Positions 54,451 through 63,931 of a stretch of DNA of 64,000 nt are shown here, piece after piece. Numbering within the stretch: the stretch's first letter is position 1; every line of letters begins with the position of its first letter. The notes under the pieces are model-generated. The model saw only the letters and a program-made list of their open reading frames with translations. It made no database searches and was not told the DNA's origin. Source of the DNA: Eunapius fragilis (Eukaryota > Porifera > Demospongiae > Spongillida > Spongillidae); contig OY811985.1 of the NCBI GenBank assembly GCA_963681505.1, positions 3,771,271 through 3,835,270 on the forward strand, written 5' to 3'. The translations under genes and the position numbers were made by a program.

Positions 54451-54460
54451 GTCTATATAA
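54451..54460 (+). promoter_or_regulatory. putative TATA box of the talin-head gene
   Basis: TCTATATAA lies about 38 bp before the ATG at 54498. If used it implies a very short 5' leader of about 10-20 nt. The motif is clear; its use is inferred. Confidence 0.35.
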
Positions 54461-54497: not shown

Positions 54498-57400
54498 ATG
54501 GCTAGCTCAACTGGAAAAGTCGCGATTGAAGTCCAGCTGGTTGATACCAATGACATCAAAACAATAATGGTAGATGAGGCCTTCAATTCCAAGGGAAAGT
54601 TTTCGTATGATCCCACCTCTTCGCTTCTTTCATTACGAATGTTCTGCAGTTCGAGGAAACTATGCTTGTCTGTTTCGCATGCAGCTTCGTTCGTGAGAAG
54701 TATGCCTCTTCCAACAATAAAGATGGAATAGGTACGTTATGTTCACTGTGTGACACACATTTGTTTCTTCTCAAGTCGAACATTTCAGAGGGGAACTTTT
54801 GGCACATTCCATACGCAATGTTGCTTGGCGTGATCACCATGCATATTCAACCATATGCCAATCCGAACCATTGAGAAGGAATTCGTAACATTCGTAGCGT
54901 TAAATAGGGGAGGGGGGAGTTGTTCTTTGTAATGCCGCGTTGTAAACTGTTAGTCTGTACCCCGACCAAAAGGCGTTACAGCAGTGGGGTGGATCACATC
55001 ACCACTATGTTCAGTATAGGTAGTAGTAAAAGTGTACGGTGCACTTTTCTCGTGCCAGATCTGGTATGCATAGTTATATACGAGATATTGACGTTATGAA
55101 GATTGCGCTGTTATAGCAGTCGTGCATGGACTGCCTAAACGCCCTGTAACCATAGATATTATATGAAGGGATCGGAAATGGGGCCTTTTAACACCAACCA
55201 ACAGGTACAATCAGTGTAGTAGCGGAAGTTCAAATAAAATGGAGGATCAAATGACTGGTATTGTTAGCTGCTCCTGATTAGAATTACATAATTTCAAACA
55301 GCCCACTGCAGTATCGCATTAACATCTTGTCACGGGGGGGGGGGGGGGGGGGGGGGGGAGGGGGGGGGGGTAACTCGTGGAATTAAGCACAGGAAGAAAA
55401 AAAAGCGTCGCATCATTTGAACAGAAAATCACACAAAAATCATACGCTTTTTTGTGTGATTCTCTGTTCAATCGCGCAATGATTTCTAAATGATTCGACG
55501 CTTTTTTCCCCTGTGAAGTTTTTTTAATCCTATGAAAAATCATTGCGTGATCTTACACACAAAATCATATTGTGTGTGATTTGTATGTGATTCTTTGCAA
55601 TATCACACAATGATTCCACGCGTTCTTTTTCCCCTGTGTGTCCTTTCCTCTTCCATTATTGCGAACTTTCTTCTGATAATCCTTTTTCATCGTCAGAATT
55701 TCTAGTGGATCCATCGGGGTCCTTGCCATCCCTTGCCATCTTTAAGGTATTCACTAACACTGCGCAGTGTCAATCATGTGGGTTCGAGGGGTTCGATCGT
55801 ACCCCCACTCCGGCCCGGCCAGGTGTCCTACTCCGTCCGTTAAACCAATTAAGCGGGCAACGCCTATGCACGCCTGCTGTTTTATAATTAACTATCATTG
55901 AATGTAACGTTTCGATCGAAAATGGTGTCACGTAAGAGAATCAGATTTAAGCAATCAGATATTTTCGACATTATGCCGATCATAATATGCCATGCATCTC
56001 ATGAGGCTGATGGTATAGATGGCGCAGTCGCTAACCTATAGTCTCTCTCTCTCTCACTCTGATCGCATGCCTGTGTGCATGACGCAGAGAGGTGTCTGAC
56101 CTTGTGTGCACTGATGTGGATGTGTGCACTGATGTGGAGAGGGCTGACCTTGTGTGCACTGATGTGGAGAGAGCTGACCTTGTGTGAACTGATGTGGAGA
56201 GGGCTGACCCTGTGTGCACTGATGTGGAGAGAGCTGGCTGATCTTGTGTGCACTGTGTGAAAAGAGCTGACCTTGTGTGCACTGACGTGGAGTGAGCTGA
56301 CCTTGTGTGCACTGAAGTGGAGAGCGCTGGCTTACAGACTAACATGAATGTCAAAGTAGTAATGCTGATGTGCAGCCTTATACTGTGCATGCAGAAAGCG
56401 CTGATCGGGATACTCAGGGCAGATAGCTAATGAGACAATGATTTAATGGTGTTGAAGCATCTGAAGATTATTGAGCCTTACTGCAGGTCAAAAGTATTGC
56501 TTGCCAACAAATTATTACAAACCAGAGCCAAAATTCTTGTCTCCCAGAACATTTTCAAACGAGTGTAAACAGTCATTTCAGTTGAGTTGGTTACATAAAT
56601 ACCCAGGACTGGCGTACAGTATAGAATTGAATGCAGGGTTTTGCAATTTTTGTGCCTTATTTGTAGTAAAATACAGAGATAAGCTTTGGTTTACTTGTGA
56701 CCAAATCATTTAAGAACTGGGTAAAAGAAATTCTGGCCTCTCACAATATCATAGCATTGCAACTGCAGCTTGCATTGAACTTCCATAAGTCAACAAAGCA
56801 GCCACAAGGCAATATTTGCTTGTATAATTGTCTGTAAAACGTTGTGCATACTGTATTGTGGCAAGCAATGTATTGCTCTCAGAGGAGACAAGTGGAAACT
56901 GGATAAACCAGGAAACATGGAAACGTTTTGTCAATGATGAAAATAATAGCAAACTATGATTCTATTTTGAAGGCTCATCTTGCAAAGCCTATAGACAAAA
57001 GAATGCCACTTATATTTCATCCAAAAATACAGAAAGAAATAATGGATATCATTGGCAAAGAAATTACCCAAAAGTCGATTATAAAAGAGAATCAAAAGGT
57101 GGCGGCTATATGGAGGCCAAGTTACATCTTACATCAAAGAACACATGCATGTCTTTGTTGTCAGCAAAAAATCCGTTCGAAAAGAATTTATACAATTTAC
57201 CACTCGTATTCAAGTCACAGGAAAATCAATAGCTGAACAAATATGTGATGACCTCAAGCTCCTGAGCTTAAATATCAAAAACATCAGAGGTCGGGGATAC
57301 GATGGAGCCTCTAGTATAGGTGTAGTAACCACACTGGAGCTCCAGGAAAAAATCAACACTTGCCACATTGTAGTGGACATTGGGCAGAAACGCATTCAGC

Positions 57401-60400
57401 ATATCAGCATTTCAATCTCCCCCTTATTCCCTGGCAGTTAATCGAACCGCCCTTTCTAAAATCCTGTGCACGGTCCTGCATGTGGCATGGAAGTGTGAAG
57501 CTGTACTTTAGAGAAAAAATGCTGGGTGTTATTTCTGTTCACTGTACCCGCAGGCAAAGAAAATATGGACAAATGGCTCAATGTGACGTACATGTAATCA
57601 TTTCATATTTGCTCATGCAATTTGACTGTATTTGTTCACTCTATCACATACTCTTCTACCGACTTCACCATAAACCCCGTGTCCCCCCAACCTGCCCTCG
57701 TTTTAGCATGTGGCACGCTCAACCCTAGTAAAGTACTGGCGGGCACAATAGTACTACGCAATTCAGGCATTATTACAAGCGGACCACTTTTCAGCGTATA
57801 GGTCAAATTTCCACGGGAAAATAGGGTAAGGCGCGAACCGAATTTTTCAGTGCTCCTAGTTTTTCAAGTTTTCAAATTGTTTGATTCCAAAGAGCTTCTA
57901 TCAAATTGTCGAAATTGGACTATCCATCATCCATCATAAAGTTATTAGGCACTGAATTTATTATTAGCCATACATTTCAATGCGAACGTTACTTTTCTTT
58001 TGCTTGTCCTGGAATTTTTGAACAAGTATCACAAGGGTGATATTGCTGGACACTGTTCCATATAATTATATATAATTTTAATCTTTTATATTTATAATTT
58101 TTATATATCAAAGGAAGAAAATAAACAGCCTACAATAAATGCCACCAAACATATCATGGCCTTTGATACCACTGGAGGATGAGGTGGTGGTGGTGGTGGT
58201 GGTGGTGGTGGTGGTGGTGGTGGTGGTGGTGGTGGTGGTGGTGGTGGTGGTGGTGGTGGTGGTGGTGGTGGTGGTGGTGGTGGTGGTGGTGGTGGTGGTG
58301 GTGGTGGTGGTGGTGGTGGTGGTGGTGGTGGTGGTGGTGGTGGTGGTGGTGGTGGTGGTGGTGGTGGTGGTGGTGGTGGTGGTGGTGGTGGTGGTGGTGG
58401 TGGTGGTGGTGGTGGTGGTGGTGGTGGTGGTGGTGGTGGTGGTGGTGGTGGTGGTGGTGGTGGTGGTGGTGGTGGTGGTGGTGGTGGTGGTGGTGGTGGT
58501 GGTGGTGGTGGTGGTGGTGGTGGTGGTGGTGGTGGTGGTGGTGGTGGTGGTGGTGGTGGTGGTGGTGGTGGTGGTGGTGGTGGTGGTGGTGGTGGTGGTG
58601 GTGGTGGTGGTGGTGGTGGTGGTGGTGGTGGTGGTGGTGGTGGTGGTGGTGGTGGTGGTGGTGGTGGTGGTGGTGGTGGTGGTGGTGGTGGTGGTGGTGG
58701 TGGTGGTGGTGGTGGTGGTGGTGGTGGTGGTGGTGGTGGTGGTGGTGGTGGTGGTGGTGGTGGTGGTGGTGGTGGTGGTGGTGGTGGTGGTGGTGGTGGT
58801 GGTGGTGGTGGTGGTGGTGGTGGTGGTGGTGGTGGTGGTGGTGGTGGTGGTGGTGGTGGTGGTGGTGGTGGTGGTGGTGGTGGTGGTGGTGGTGGTGGTG
58901 GTGGTGGTGGTGGTGGTGGTGGTGGTGGTGGTGGTGGTGGTGGTGGTGGTGGTGGTGGTGGTGGTGGTGGTGGTGGTGGTGGTGGTGGTGGTGGTGGTGG
59001 TGGTGGTGGTGGTGGTGGTGGTGGTGGTGGTGGTGGTGGTGGTGGTGGTGGTGGTGGTGGTGGTGGTGGTGGTGGTGGTGGTGGTGGTGGTGGTGGTGGT
59101 GGTGGTGGTGGTGGTGGTGGTGGTGGTGGTGGTGGTGGTGGTGGTGGTGGTGGTGGTGGTGGTGGTGGTGGTGGTGGTGGTGGTGGTGGTGGTGGTGGTG
59201 GTGGTGGTGGTGGTGGTGGTGGTGGTGGTGGTGGTGGTGGTGGTGGTGGTGGTGGTGGTGGTGGTGGTGGTGGTGGTGGTGGTGGTGGTGGTGGTCGTGG
59301 TGGTGGTGGTGGTGGTGGTGATGCACAAGTGATTGTAATATAATGATGTCAGGGCACGTGTGGTGCAATGCAATTAAATTTAGAATTAGCTTATCATAAC
59401 CAATTTAATAGCGAAATAATGCTTTTAATAAAAGTTGCTACAGGTTAGAATCTGACTTCAATGAATTTTGACATTCAGATAAAAGGTTTGGGTTCAATAA
59501 TTTTTACTCCCTTACTTGATGAAGCATTATGGCTGAATATTAATGCGTATTATGATGACATTGAATTCATTGACTATATTTACAACGTCAATGAAGTTTT
59601 TTTTACCATTTTAAATATATGCTATTTTAATGTAAGAAACTAAGGTTAACAAGGCCGGTAATGTTTATGATGTGTCTAATTAGGTACTCGGGAGTTAAAG
59701 CTACTTATTAATTCATATTAATATTTTTTCAGCAAATGAATACGGTTTGTTCAAACCAGATAAGGTAAATCCAGTATGGCTACAGATGGGCCATATGATC
59801 AAGGACTATTCACTTTGCAATGGAGTAAGTGGGGGGTGAAGCAGACAATTGTTTTTTTTTTTATGCATGCATCCTATACACGACGCATGATCGCAGGACA
59901 TTCTGCAGTATAAGAGAAAGGTCACCCCTTACACCGTGATCATGCCGGACGGAGGCACCAGGAATGTCAAACTGGATACCAGTCGAACAGTGGCGGAGAA
60001 CGTCACGGTTGTGTGCAGTGAAGTTGGTAATGGATAATGCTGGCATGGCATGAGATTTCGAGTTCGCTAAACTGATTTCATCACTCCTTGCATGGCATTC
60101 ATTCGTGTAGAACTAGCAAATCACTATGAATACTCGTTTGAGGCACCTACACCTGCCATGGTAATTATATATGCATGCATATTACATGGTGATGATTGTA
60201 ATTCCCATATGTGCATGCATGGCTCCGTATTGTACATGCATAACCCCAGAAATTGACAAAGCAGGATACAAAATCCAAGAAACGCTCCTCGTCTTCTGAA
60301 AAGAGTAAGTTGTGAGTCAATGTAGAAGTTGCAATATATTAATATCTTACCAGTAGTTAAAAATCACTATTAACTTTAAAATTTATTGAATTAATCTTAC

Positions 60401-60528
60401 CAGTGTTTAAAAATCACTATTAAAAATTTATTAACCGTACCAATGTATTGATGGTATATACCACGATGTCATGCATACAACACAGACGCACACGCACACA
60501 TACACACAACACACACACATACACACAC

Positions 60529-60576
<48 letters not shown>

Positions 60577-62797
60577 CATCGACTTCATCGCGTAGATAAA
60601 ACAAAGTTATTGCGCATGCAAACGATGGGCTTTAAAATTTTATGCAGCGTTGCCCTAATTTGCAAACTCGAAAGAAGCCGCATCTCCCAAAGTTTCTAGG
60701 AAAGGATAGAGGTAAAGTAGCATACGTTTTATTATTCACACAGACGTATGGCTGAAAGCCAATAAAACGTTTGCTGAGCAAGGAGTGGATGAAAACTGTC
60801 TGCTTACGCTGAAACGAAAGTTCGTTGTTGTCGATGCGCCAATCCAGCTTGGTGACTCTTGTAATTTAAACCTTGTTTATGTTCAGGTGAGACCCAACGG
60901 TGTCATGCAACTTTGAGCGATTAATTATTGTAGTGAATGGTCTGGATATGCTCTCTACCCCAAGTGTCGGGACGCCATCATTAGCGGTGTGCATCCTTGT
61001 ACCGAGGATGAAGCCATTCAGCTTGCAGCGCTTCAGTGTTACGTGAAGTTTGGAAAGGGAAGACCAAACTCAATCAAAGTAGCCGAATTTCTGCCACTTG
61101 ATTACGCTGCAGTAAAGGACATAGAACAGACCGTGCTTTCGGCTCATTCAAAACTAAGCGACATGACAGAGGCCGACGGTAAGGTTCTTTACATCCAGTT
61201 TTGTCGTTCCCTTCGTACATACGGGGCGACATTCTTCCTCGTCAACGAGAAACGTAAGGGCAAGAAAAAGTTGGTCCCCACCATGCTTGGGTTCAAACCG
61301 GCTGGAATCTTACGAGTGGACAAGGCTACAAAGCAAGTTATTGCCTTCTGGCCTCTTGATAGCGTGCGCCGCTGGTTAGCCACTGAAGATTTCTTCAAAA
61401 TAGTAAGTCATTTATATGCATGCATTTATGAAAATGGTAACATTATTATAATTATAATTATGCATAATTATTATGTTTTAATACAATAAGGACTTCGGAG
61501 TAGCCTCGCAGCTCATCTATGTAGTGAAAACGGCAGAAGGTCATGCCCTATCCGAACTGCTCTCAGAACTAATCAGTGTAACGGAGAAAATCAAAAAGCT
61601 CACCAGCGAGAATAAAACAGACGAAGACAGTTGCATGAAGTTAGTTTGAAGACACTGGTATTCATGCCTCCCATGACACTACACAAAATCCATATGCAGG
61701 AAGGACGCAGAATTCCGAAAGCCTGAGAGCGCATGCGCCATTGCTGATGATGCCTTGGAGTCAGGAGCAGCCTCTGATGATGCCGTATTTCCCCCGAATG
61801 GGGGCCAATTTCTAAGAACCTCAGATTGCTCATCTCCTAGACACTTGGATTGCCCATCTCCAAGACCACTAGATTGCCCGTCACCAAGATCCTCTTTAGG
61901 TTGCCCATCTCCGGGGTTCTTAGAGTGCCCATCTCCGGGGGCCATAGATTGCCCTTCACCAAGGCCAGGGAGCGGTGAGTTTAGATCATTTTCCGAGATG
62001 TCCAACCCAAGTGAATCGAGCGATAAAAATAGGTTGGTATGCTTGGATTAATAAATCAATGTCTCCCCATAAATATACCACATTGCATGCATCATGCATG
62101 GTTCAATGCAGCACCGGAGTGCAAAATGGCGCTGGAATGCAATTATTAGCCAGGTAACCCCGTCGTTGATACATATGTATAATGTAATATGTTATAAATT
62201 ATCCTTTCCTTAAAAATAAAATAAATAAATAAAAAAGTATTCCCCAGCAATTACCCACAGCAATACAGACACATCCAGCAGACACGACAGAGCATAAAAT
62301 GGTTCTAGCAACACCTCAGAATCCGCCAACCGAATTGATTTCCGTGCCAGCAACTTTTGACTTGCGAGGACCTGCTGGTGCCGGATACTTAACACCTGGT
62401 GCAACAAGTGGAAAAGAATCTGATGCCAAACAGGTGATTTATTATTTCGATCCATTTCTTCTTTTAGATATGGCAGCATGTTCTGCATGCCGCCATATAT
62501 ACGCATATTATATATTCACGGAATGTAATGCAAATTAATTAACTGCGTGCAGTTATTATTTAACTATTCTGAGTACTGAGGTGTAAATTCGTATAATGTT
62601 GTATACATGCGCAGGAAGTGCAGAGGCTGCAGGGGCAGGTTCTTCGGCTTCAATTAGAGCTTCAGATGGCCATGGATCAAACCAAGTATGCAGAACAGAG
62701 AGCAGAATTTGCTGAAAGAAGGGCAGTATTAGCCGAAGAGAGGGCCAAAAGAGCTGAAGACTCATTTCGACTGTCGTGGCAAATATATCAAAAATAA
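54498..62797 (+). CDS. talin-head (FERM F0-F3) protein without rod, 613 aa
   Basis: Twelve exons: 54498-54569, 54650-54731, 59733-59824, 59897-60026, 60111-60160, 60250-60304, 60744-60886, 60965-61402, 61491-61639, 61700-61974, 62261-62433 and 62615-62797. All have GT-AG borders, all phases agree, and the total is 1842 nt (614 codons). F0 (1-82): IKTIM, FEETMLVCFACSFVREKY, NEYGLFKPDKVNPVWLQMG. F1 (83-205): RKVTPYTVIMPDGGTRNVKL, a short Lys/Ser-rich loop, KTFAEQGVDENCLLTLKRKF. F2 (209-303): LVYVQCRDAIISGVHP to SLRTYGATFFLVNEKRKGKK. F3 (305-404): LVPTMLGF, LRVDKATKQVIAFWPLDSVR, RW (Trp 345), DFGVASQLIYVVKTAEG. This F0-F3 order is specific to talin. The RRW and DFG positions, which in talin lie where F3 binds the integrin beta tail, are kept. 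Instead of the linker, 13-bundle rod and THATCH domain of talin (about 2,500 aa) come six C(P/S)SP(R/G) repeats, a Pro/Thr-rich stretch and a 60-aa coiled coil (YAEQRAEFAERRAVLAEERA). AATAAA overlaps the stop. Confidence 0.85.
55335..55371. repeat. poly-G run
   Basis: About 36 bases of G with one A. It is followed by inverted segments around ATCACACAAAAATCATACGC and GCGTCG...CGACGC up to 55640. Confidence 0.95.
56085..56335. repeat. 30-bp minisatellite GCACTGATGTGGAGAGAGCT
   Basis: About eight copies of TGACCTTGTGTGCACTGATG plus TGGAGAGAGC, with partial units. The open frames on both strands across it are repeat artefacts. Confidence 0.9.
56471..57380 (+). pseudogene. hAT-family (ZMYM/TTF-finger type) transposase relic
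   Basis: PRTFSNECKQSFQLSWLHKY, PGLAYS and NAGFCNFCALF match the TTF-type zinc finger at the start of ZMYM1-like hAT transposases. Further on, in changing frames, KEFIQFTTRIQVTGKSIAEQ and NIRGRGYDGASSI match the DUF4371 block with the RGQxYDGA motif. Several stops and frameshifts intervene. It lies in the same orientation as the host gene, within its second intron. Confidence 0.7.
58183..59320. repeat. (GGT)n trinucleotide array, about 379 units
   Basis: 1.14 kb of GGT repeated with a single visible interruption (CGT at 59296) within the second intron of the talin-head gene, about 410 bp before its third exon. The long frames of one amino acid (Val, Trp, Gly; Thr, His, Pro on the other strand) are artefacts. 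Confidence 0.98.
60480..60572. repeat. (CA)n microsatellite
   Basis: Imperfect then pure CA repeat in the intron between the sixth and seventh exons of the talin-head gene. Confidence 0.95.
62112..62153 (+). CDS. possible alternative mini-exon of the talin-head gene
   Basis: ATGCAG|C...GCCAG|GTAACC bounds 42 bases (TGVQNGAGMQLLA). It is in phase with an alternative tenth-exon donor at 62032 (AATAG|GTTGGT), which would extend the linker by RSFSEMSNPSESSDKN. Joining it to the 62261 exon breaks the frame, so it would need another partner or give a short form. Confidence 0.3.
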
Positions 62798-63387: not shown

Positions 63388-63931
63388 TCACAGTTTTATA
63401 TCATCTGTGGCAGCAAGATGATAGACGTCGTTATTGGTACTGAAGTCCTGCATTGCAGAGTACTTTGCTACAGCTCTGCGACGTCTCAAAGCGAAGAAGA
63501 CGACAACCCCAGCAATAGCCAACAATATGACTGCGCTACCGACGCCTACGGGCACGCCAATGGACACCCCTCGCCGAGTGGCGTCTGCTTGCGCCTGGCT
63601 ATCTTTGGGCGGAGCGCCTGTTGTCGGTGGGCTTGTTTCTTTGGATGGAGAAGTGGAAGTCGTTTTCGGAGGCGTTGTAGAACCTGGAAACCGAAACTAC
63701 CCATAGTCAAATACGTTTCTTATGGCTAACGTGGACATTAATTACCTTGTGAGGGGGTGTTAGTTGTAGTTCCTACAAAAGAAATTTAAAATTTAAAATT
63801 ACTGCCAGTATACATGCAATACCTGGAGGAGAAGTTGGAGATGCATAGGTACTGTTGCATCCTCCCGCATTGAGGGGGATTACAGTGTATGGAATAATGT
63901 TCACCCTTGAAATAGGGAAGACCAAGTCAAT
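63388..63931 (-). CDS. type I membrane protein, C-terminal part
   Basis: Three exons fit in phase: 63931-63823 (IDLVFPISRVNIIPYTVIPL, NAGGCNSTYASPTSPP), 63772-63746 (TTTNTPSQ) and 63683-63388 (stop TGA). The ectodomain end is a Ser/Thr/Pro mucin-like stalk (STTPPKTTSTSPSKETSPPT). Then come GVPVGVGSAVILLAIAGVVV and FFA, a single membrane helix, a stop-transfer LRRRR and a short tail (AKYSAMQDFSTNNDVYHLAA) with tyrosines. YSAM fits a YxxM or YxxPhi sorting/docking motif. The acceptor before IDLV has a long pyrimidine tract, so more exons lie to the right of the window. The ectodomain fold cannot be named from this fragment. Confidence 0.7.

Follow-up and report, generated by a model that had tools for sequence, protein, structure and literature searches.

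A predicted gene for a talin head without a rod, one of seven rodless talin-head loci in the sponge Eunapius fragilis

Introduction

Talin is usually pictured as a single link, its head holding on to integrin and its rod pulling on actin. Its head has relatives in the kindlins, FERM proteins that possess an F0 domain and bind integrin beta tails, and in which a PH domain is inserted in F2. Parts of talin are also known in isolation. The lone talin head has been described as an artificial or proteolytic fragment, either overexpressed or cut by calpain, and TLNRD1, a rod-only talin paralogue that retains a part of talin as a gene of its own, was first seen in sponges and choanoflagellates according to the available text of its description (PMC8287531). 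Among FERM proteins that act on adhesion in an organism without integrins, Dictyostelium FrmA is termed multi-FERM in a reference title in the accessible part of PMC9197732. A survey of part of the open literature on talin yielded no description of a naturally occurring talin gene that lacks the rod.

Here we describe such a candidate gene in a window of 64,000 nucleotides from Eunapius fragilis (the whole stretch of DNA analysed), which would correspond to chromosome 15, 3771271-3835270, of assembly odEunFrag1.1. The predicted protein resembles the heads of talin-1 and talin-2 in domain order, in sequence (42-43% identity from the end of F1 to F3), in the main residues of the integrin pocket and in a basic F1 loop, but it lacks the rod, the vinculin sites and I/LWEQ, has a CPSP and coil tail of its own, carries Glu in place of R118 and has lost part of the F2 patch. 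It represents the same part of the protein as the isolated talin head, whereas here the head is a separate gene with a tail. Unlike TLNRD1, which consists of R7R8 only and is encoded by a single exon, the gene encodes the head only and has talin introns. The kindlins differ in their PH domain, no PH family being found in the window protein, and FrmA differs in having several FERM domains where the window protein has one, a distinction drawn from descriptions rather than from compared sequences.

Results

The gene lies on the + strand of the window at 54498..62797. Its 12 exons join into 1842 nt, which encode 613 aa and end in TAA, and its introns follow GT-AG throughout with consistent phases; rebuilding it from the raw sequence recovered the twelve exons, matching phases and protein length of the original prediction. 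Exon borders were set by eye, guided by talin homology, to give the following features.

54454..54460, + strand: box-like TATATAA, 38-44 bases 5' of the ATG; possible promoter, judged from sequence
54498..54569, + strand: exon 1, start codon and beginning of F0; end and phase as in the sponge talin gene
54650..54731, + strand: exon 2, F0; FERM_f0 at residues 9-89
54732..59732, + strand: intron 2, 5.0 kb; contains a (GGT)379 array and what may be hAT-like remnants
59733..59824, + strand: exon 3, F0
59897..60026, + strand: exon 4, end of F0 and beginning of F1; 130 nt, equal in the talin gene
60111..60160, + strand: exon 5, F1; end unrecovered in the human-query alignment
60250..60304, + strand: exon 6, basic F1 loop, our own model
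60744..60886, + strand: exon 7, last part of F1 and beginning of F2; 143 nt, equal in the talin gene
60965..61402, + strand: exon 8, F2 and first half of F3; equivalents of K324, L325, R358 and W359
61491..61639, + strand: exon 9, end of F3; I396 equivalent
61700..61974, + strand: exon 10, tail; CSSP and five CPSP repeats
62261..62433, + strand: exon 11, tail; single YLTP motif
62615..62797, + strand: exon 12, heptad coil rich in alanine, then the stop codon
62793..62798, + strand: AATAAA polyadenylation signal, overlapping the stop codon; read from sequence

When a human talin head was used as the query for spliced alignment, the borders of exons 2-4 and 8 and the start of exon 9 came out identical to ours. 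Exons 5-7, in the region of the F1 loop, were not reproduced, because the human construct lacks this loop, and these three exons are predicted by our own model and by that of the original prediction. The loop (residues 135-161) holds 7 K/R and 3 D/E. At the other end of the gene, the 3' border of exon 10 was picked for phase, with an alternative donor lying 58 bases further on. As originally proposed, a stop codon and a polyadenylation signal close the locus, the TAA being overlapped by the AATAAA, and beyond them runs a stretch of open frames on the opposite strand. An open frame at 63388-63696 on the - strand likely encodes a membrane protein of the single-pass type, whose short tail ends in NNDVYHLAATDDIKL; no Pfam family matched it above the cut-off.

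The (GGT)379 array in intron 2 spans 58183-59320 (1.14 kb, 99% match) and would appear as (GGU)n in the transcript if the gene is expressed. Open frames at 56465-57441 of the same intron resemble what we take to be remnants of hAT/ZMYM-type transposases; of the two frames scanned there, one gave DUF4371 at E 0.0098, below the cut-off, and the other gave nothing.

The first 404 residues of the protein had been read as talin F0-F1-F2-F3 in order, and this reading held when the 613 aa were searched with Pfam profiles, which detected FERM_f0 at 9-89 (E 1.2e-15), FERM_M at 196-299 (E 8.1e-24) and IRS/PTB at 299-383 (E 1.3e-15). F1 (90-195), where no Pfam family scored above the cut-off, is recognised by alignment only: talin-head sequences from the PDB align to the protein over up to residues 7-408. 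Together, these matches make up an F0-F1-F2-F3 head in linear order. In the ranking of PDB sequences, talin-2 scored 1.3e-79, with talin-1 heads also among the best, kindlin-2 4.7e-12 and myosin VIIb 2e-9, which places the protein nearer to talins than to other FERM proteins; the talin-class match is far beyond chance. From the end of F1 to F3 it is 48% identical to the sponge talin, 42-43% to the human talins and 35-41% to the other rodless heads described below. A kindlin identity was ruled out on the E values (4.7e-12 versus 1.3e-79 for talins) and on the absence of any PH family listed up to E 1. Pfam found one FERM_M and one IRS/PTB stretch in the 613 aa, and no second FERM domain.

We then looked at the rod. 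Pfam found no rod domain in the 613 aa, I/LWEQ and talin R7R8-type bundles included, and searches with four rod families returned nothing on the gene's chromosome, in line with the absence of the rod claimed before. The genome searched comprised 218,937,333 bases in 24 sequences, and the profile searches scored the best candidates only. A separate full-length talin, which the genome was searched for, was found once, with head and rod exons across 13.446-13.468 Mb of chromosome 4. Talin_middle (PF09141) gave three matches, two above the cut-off, both at the full talin, and a third below it on chromosome 19. All nine matches to TLN1-like_RS (PF21865) fell at the full talin, three of them above the cut-off, as did both matches to VBS (PF08913), each above the cut-off; these three families passed the cut-off only at 13.446-13.467 Mb of chromosome 4. 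I_LWEQ (PF01608) matched six times, always above the cut-off, twice at the full talin, once on chromosome 5 and three times on chromosome 21, and on chromosomes 5 and 21 the genome search with the head gave no match at E 0.001 or better. Judged from sequence, the case for a gene encoding a talin head without a rod is strong.

It might be argued that the gene supplies just the 5' half of a talin, the rod being added by trans-splicing or having been misplaced or lost in assembly. A single rod locus was found, and the assembly, described in the accessible text as 218.91 Mb in 23 chromosomes plus mitochondrion with 802 gaps and a BUSCO value of 60% (PMC12616128), makes missing sequence possible; because of the gaps, the BUSCO value and the scoring of best candidates only, diverged or unassembled rods could be missed. 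The rod that was found, however, is accompanied by a head on chromosome 4, tail exons, a stop and an AATAAA are all present in the window gene itself, and six other heads are rodless as well. A split or trans-spliced talin, rejected on the results of the rod-family searches, is in our view highly improbable.

The talin-class F0-F3 head without a rod of the original prediction was supported, and it turned out to have company. A search of the genome with the head, in which only the best candidates were scored (30 of 30), revealed talin F2 exons at E < 1e-20 in eight loci, of which one is the full talin and seven are rodless, namely the window gene and the following loci on chromosomes 4 (C4) and 10 (C10).

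12.771 Mb on C4: C4a, rodless talin-head locus
12.908 Mb on C4: C4b, rodless talin-head locus
2.730, 2.829, 2.931 and 2.962 Mb on C10: C10a-d, four rodless talin-head loci

These siblings were modelled with our own spliced aligner, whose outermost exons are partly spurious at C4b and C10a-d. C10b, C10c and C10d are recent duplicates, with aligned blocks 85-99% identical, and the F2 of C10a has a degenerate look. At the C10 loci the search for F0 exons found none, and the term 'head' there refers to F1-F3, and F1-like exons lying ~11-19 kb before the F2 exons were left unspliced; at C4b only the second half of F0 was clear. For the three recent C10 copies, dN/dS over the F2-F3 exons was 0.89, 0.59 and 0.49 on 6 to 8 changes, with zero synonymous changes in the F1 and F3-end exons, and one pair gave 0.56 for the tail, the start of the C10b tail not having been found; the changes are too few for a conclusion about selection.

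Tyrosine-rich tails occur in at least three siblings. In C4b the tail holds 7 tyrosines (QVYAVP, QTYAPL, DGYMSQF) and is closed by a stop, the C10d tail contains 8, and LYDSPI, VYYSSIV and LYYSSI are found in the C10c and C10d tails. Near C4a, at 12.773 Mb of chromosome 4, a 458-codon open frame with PPLPPKP-like motifs is assumed to belong to the C4a gene. From their shape, the tyrosine and PPLPPK motifs may bind SH2 or SH3 domains.

On chromosome 1, an F2 exon that is only distantly talin-like recurs in a cluster (14.908-15.295 Mb) with 15 copies or more. A copy joined by hand had talin-2 as its best PDB match (1.1e-12) and matched Pfam IRS/PTB at 2.1e-10, and no F0 or F1 exon was matched in the cluster.

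To ask how the window gene relates to the full talin, we compared their introns. Eight head introns are common to both in order and phase (0,1,0,1,0,1,0,0), our own exons 5-7 included; the comparison mixes two queries, between which the end of exon 2 and the start of exon 6 of the full talin differ with equal phase. These shared introns argue against a retrocopy, an origin that was ruled out on the retention of talin head introns in the window gene. Exons 5 and 6 form one exon in C4a, C10b-d and, by one of its models, C4b, a fusion that the window gene would lack, provided its exon 6 is right. The tree places the rodless heads of C4 and C10 apart from the window gene.

When the distant chromosome 1 row was included, the base of the tree was unresolved. 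Without it, three full talins were separated from six rodless rows with branch support of 95/91, C10c not being included in the trees. This division would suit an ancient head-only lineage that predates the split between sponge and vertebrate talins, as opposed to a duplicate that arose in sponges and shed its rod, a history compatible with our preferred explanation that we regard as possible, if doubtful. The rodless rows are, however, long branches, which may attract each other, and the fork is open once the chromosome 1 row is added; moreover, neither joining the window gene to sponge talin (p-AU 0.068) nor joining it to human talins (0.063) was rejected, and the shared head introns are uninformative here, ancestral introns being common anyway. 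In the FERM phylogeny the window protein stays with the talins, as had been predicted, and its joining to sponge talin is neither shown nor rejected.

The branch of the window gene is long, at 0.9 changes per column, and its function may therefore have shifted. A long branch is also what one would see in a decaying or unexpressed duplicate, in which duplication of the head and loss of the rod would have been followed by drift, and the 5-kb intron 2 with its (GGT)379 array and possible transposon remnants, like the seemingly degenerate F2 of the sibling C10a, would fit such a history. Long drift would, however, be expected to leave stops, whereas here 613 codons are open across 12 exons with splice sites and pocket residues intact and with 48% identity to sponge talin over F1-F3, making decay quite unlikely.

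To examine the binding sites, residues were aligned to human talin-1, with the numbering anchored on W359. The window protein keeps K318, K320, K322, K324, L325, V326, R358, W359 and I396; it lacks K272, K316, K343, A360, S365, Y377 and S379, and R277 is Gln in the alignment. The sponge full talin likewise lacks K343 and Y377. In F2, K256 is replaced by Arg and K274 is kept, the lysines being those that we assume to form the membrane patch. It had been suggested that the protein could bind both integrin tails and PIP2: for the former, the F3 integrin site is largely kept, whereas the F2 lysine patch is partly lost, which makes membrane binding less sure. According to the available text of a study of human talin (PMC2958305), W359 with I396 contacts the integrin tail, binding to which is weakened in vitro by R358A and W359A; L325R prevents activation, and both W359A and L325R cripple talin1 in cells. 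In the same source, R358A stops peptide binding yet largely rescued cells, so that conservation of residues is an imperfect guide.

Rap1-contact positions in F0 and F1 were taken from the accessible text of PMC8131925. Of the F0 positions, K15 is unchanged, R30 is replaced by Ser, and R35 is Lys, a mild change; in F1, the contact Arg118 is Glu in the window protein and Arg in the sponge talin. As R118E impairs Rap1-dependent activation by human talin in that account, where R35E did not, we infer that Rap1 control of the window protein is weak, and the change of R118 to Glu leads us to prefer a role as a competitor or in clustering over one as an activator.

An alternative is that the protein serves as a docking adaptor for non-integrin receptors, its F3 using the PTB fold to hold some other NPxY-like tail and its own tail acting as a scaffold. 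The siblings lend themselves to this: the C4b and C10d tails have 7 and 8 tyrosines (QVYAVP, QTYAPL, LYDSPI, VYYSSI), R358 is lost in C4b, C10a and C10b, and W359 is lost in C10a, while C4a keeps both of these residues and not L325. In the window protein, however, R358, W359 and L325 are all present and the tail contains no more than 3 tyrosines, and we judge a docking adaptor unlikely.

After F3, a 225-residue tail replaces the rod. The CPSP repeats noted earlier were counted as five, plus one CSSP. For the coiled coil likewise foreseen, an alanine-rich heptad pattern is present, hydrophobic residues or Ala occupying 13 of 14 a/d positions of a hand-picked 50-residue stretch, with 1 of 20,000 shuffles as good; the Pfam Alanine_zipper match (E 0.012), on the other hand, fell below the cut-off. 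A genome search with residues 404-613 returned the gene's own three exons and 38 weak, low-complexity CPSP/coil matches (best E 0.005), and no donor for the tail was found with this query.

Discussion

From these features we lean, without great assurance, towards the window protein being an integrin-tail binder without a rod, which occupies or pre-clusters integrins for or against the full talin; the competitor role is a proposal. Its F3 would bind the NPxY/F tails of sponge beta integrins. Talin is autoinhibited by a contact between F3 and R9, and a head without a rod would not be held shut in this way, nor would it transmit force to vinculin or actin. Through its coil the protein may oligomerise and so gather integrin tails, and the SP-rich tail could be tuned by proline-directed kinases, both of these roles being suggested by composition alone. 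The net effect would be to occupy or pre-cluster integrins that the full talin would otherwise couple to actin, which would make the protein the natural equivalent of an isolated talin head.

Potential partners are present in the genome, where Integrin_beta exons gave 32 matches on chromosomes 1, 10, 18 and 20, and where candidate integrin beta tails read NPLF..NPRY and NPLF..NPIF. The integrin cytoplasmic-tail family gave three matches in the genome, none above the cut-off, and one of these three loci had no NPx[YF] frame.

Experiments in other organisms offer analogies. In rat neurons, as reported in the accessible text of PMC4604251, overexpression of the talin head brought a rise of 30% in active beta1 integrin and a fall of 48.8% in pY397-FAK; the head blocked the effect of kindlin-1 on growth and acted as a dominant negative. 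The talin head is tied to integrin clustering in Drosophila in the part of PMC4230843 available, and in Dictyostelium without FrmA, adhesion foci persist and cells stick more (PMC9197732, likewise from partial text).

For the related sponge Ephydatia muelleri, the available text of PMC6820919 reports two talin homologues in the transcriptome. In that work, talin-2 and FAK came down with integrin beta while vinculin did not, and dorsal adhesions showed integrin beta stain with no vinculin stain; of the seven integrin beta paralogues, three were recognised by the antibody. As the precipitate analysed was a high-molecular-weight fraction, the E. muelleri talin-2 may well be full length.

Taking the seven loci together with the distant cluster, one may tentatively, and with considerable doubt, envisage in freshwater sponges a class of rodless head adaptors that splits integrin occupation and clustering from force. 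If so, siblings with tyrosine or PPLPPK tails would answer the engagement of integrins with phosphotyrosine or SH3 signalling, while the coiled window protein would cluster or block integrins, and rodless heads would give rise to vinculin-free integrin complexes, such as those reported in Ephydatia muelleri.

A talin head encoded apart several times would show that evolution has split integrin occupation from mechanical coupling. The rodless heads would be a natural test of what a lone talin head does, and the mirror image of the rod-only TLNRD1. If confirmed, the finding bears on why some sponge integrin complexes are without vinculin.
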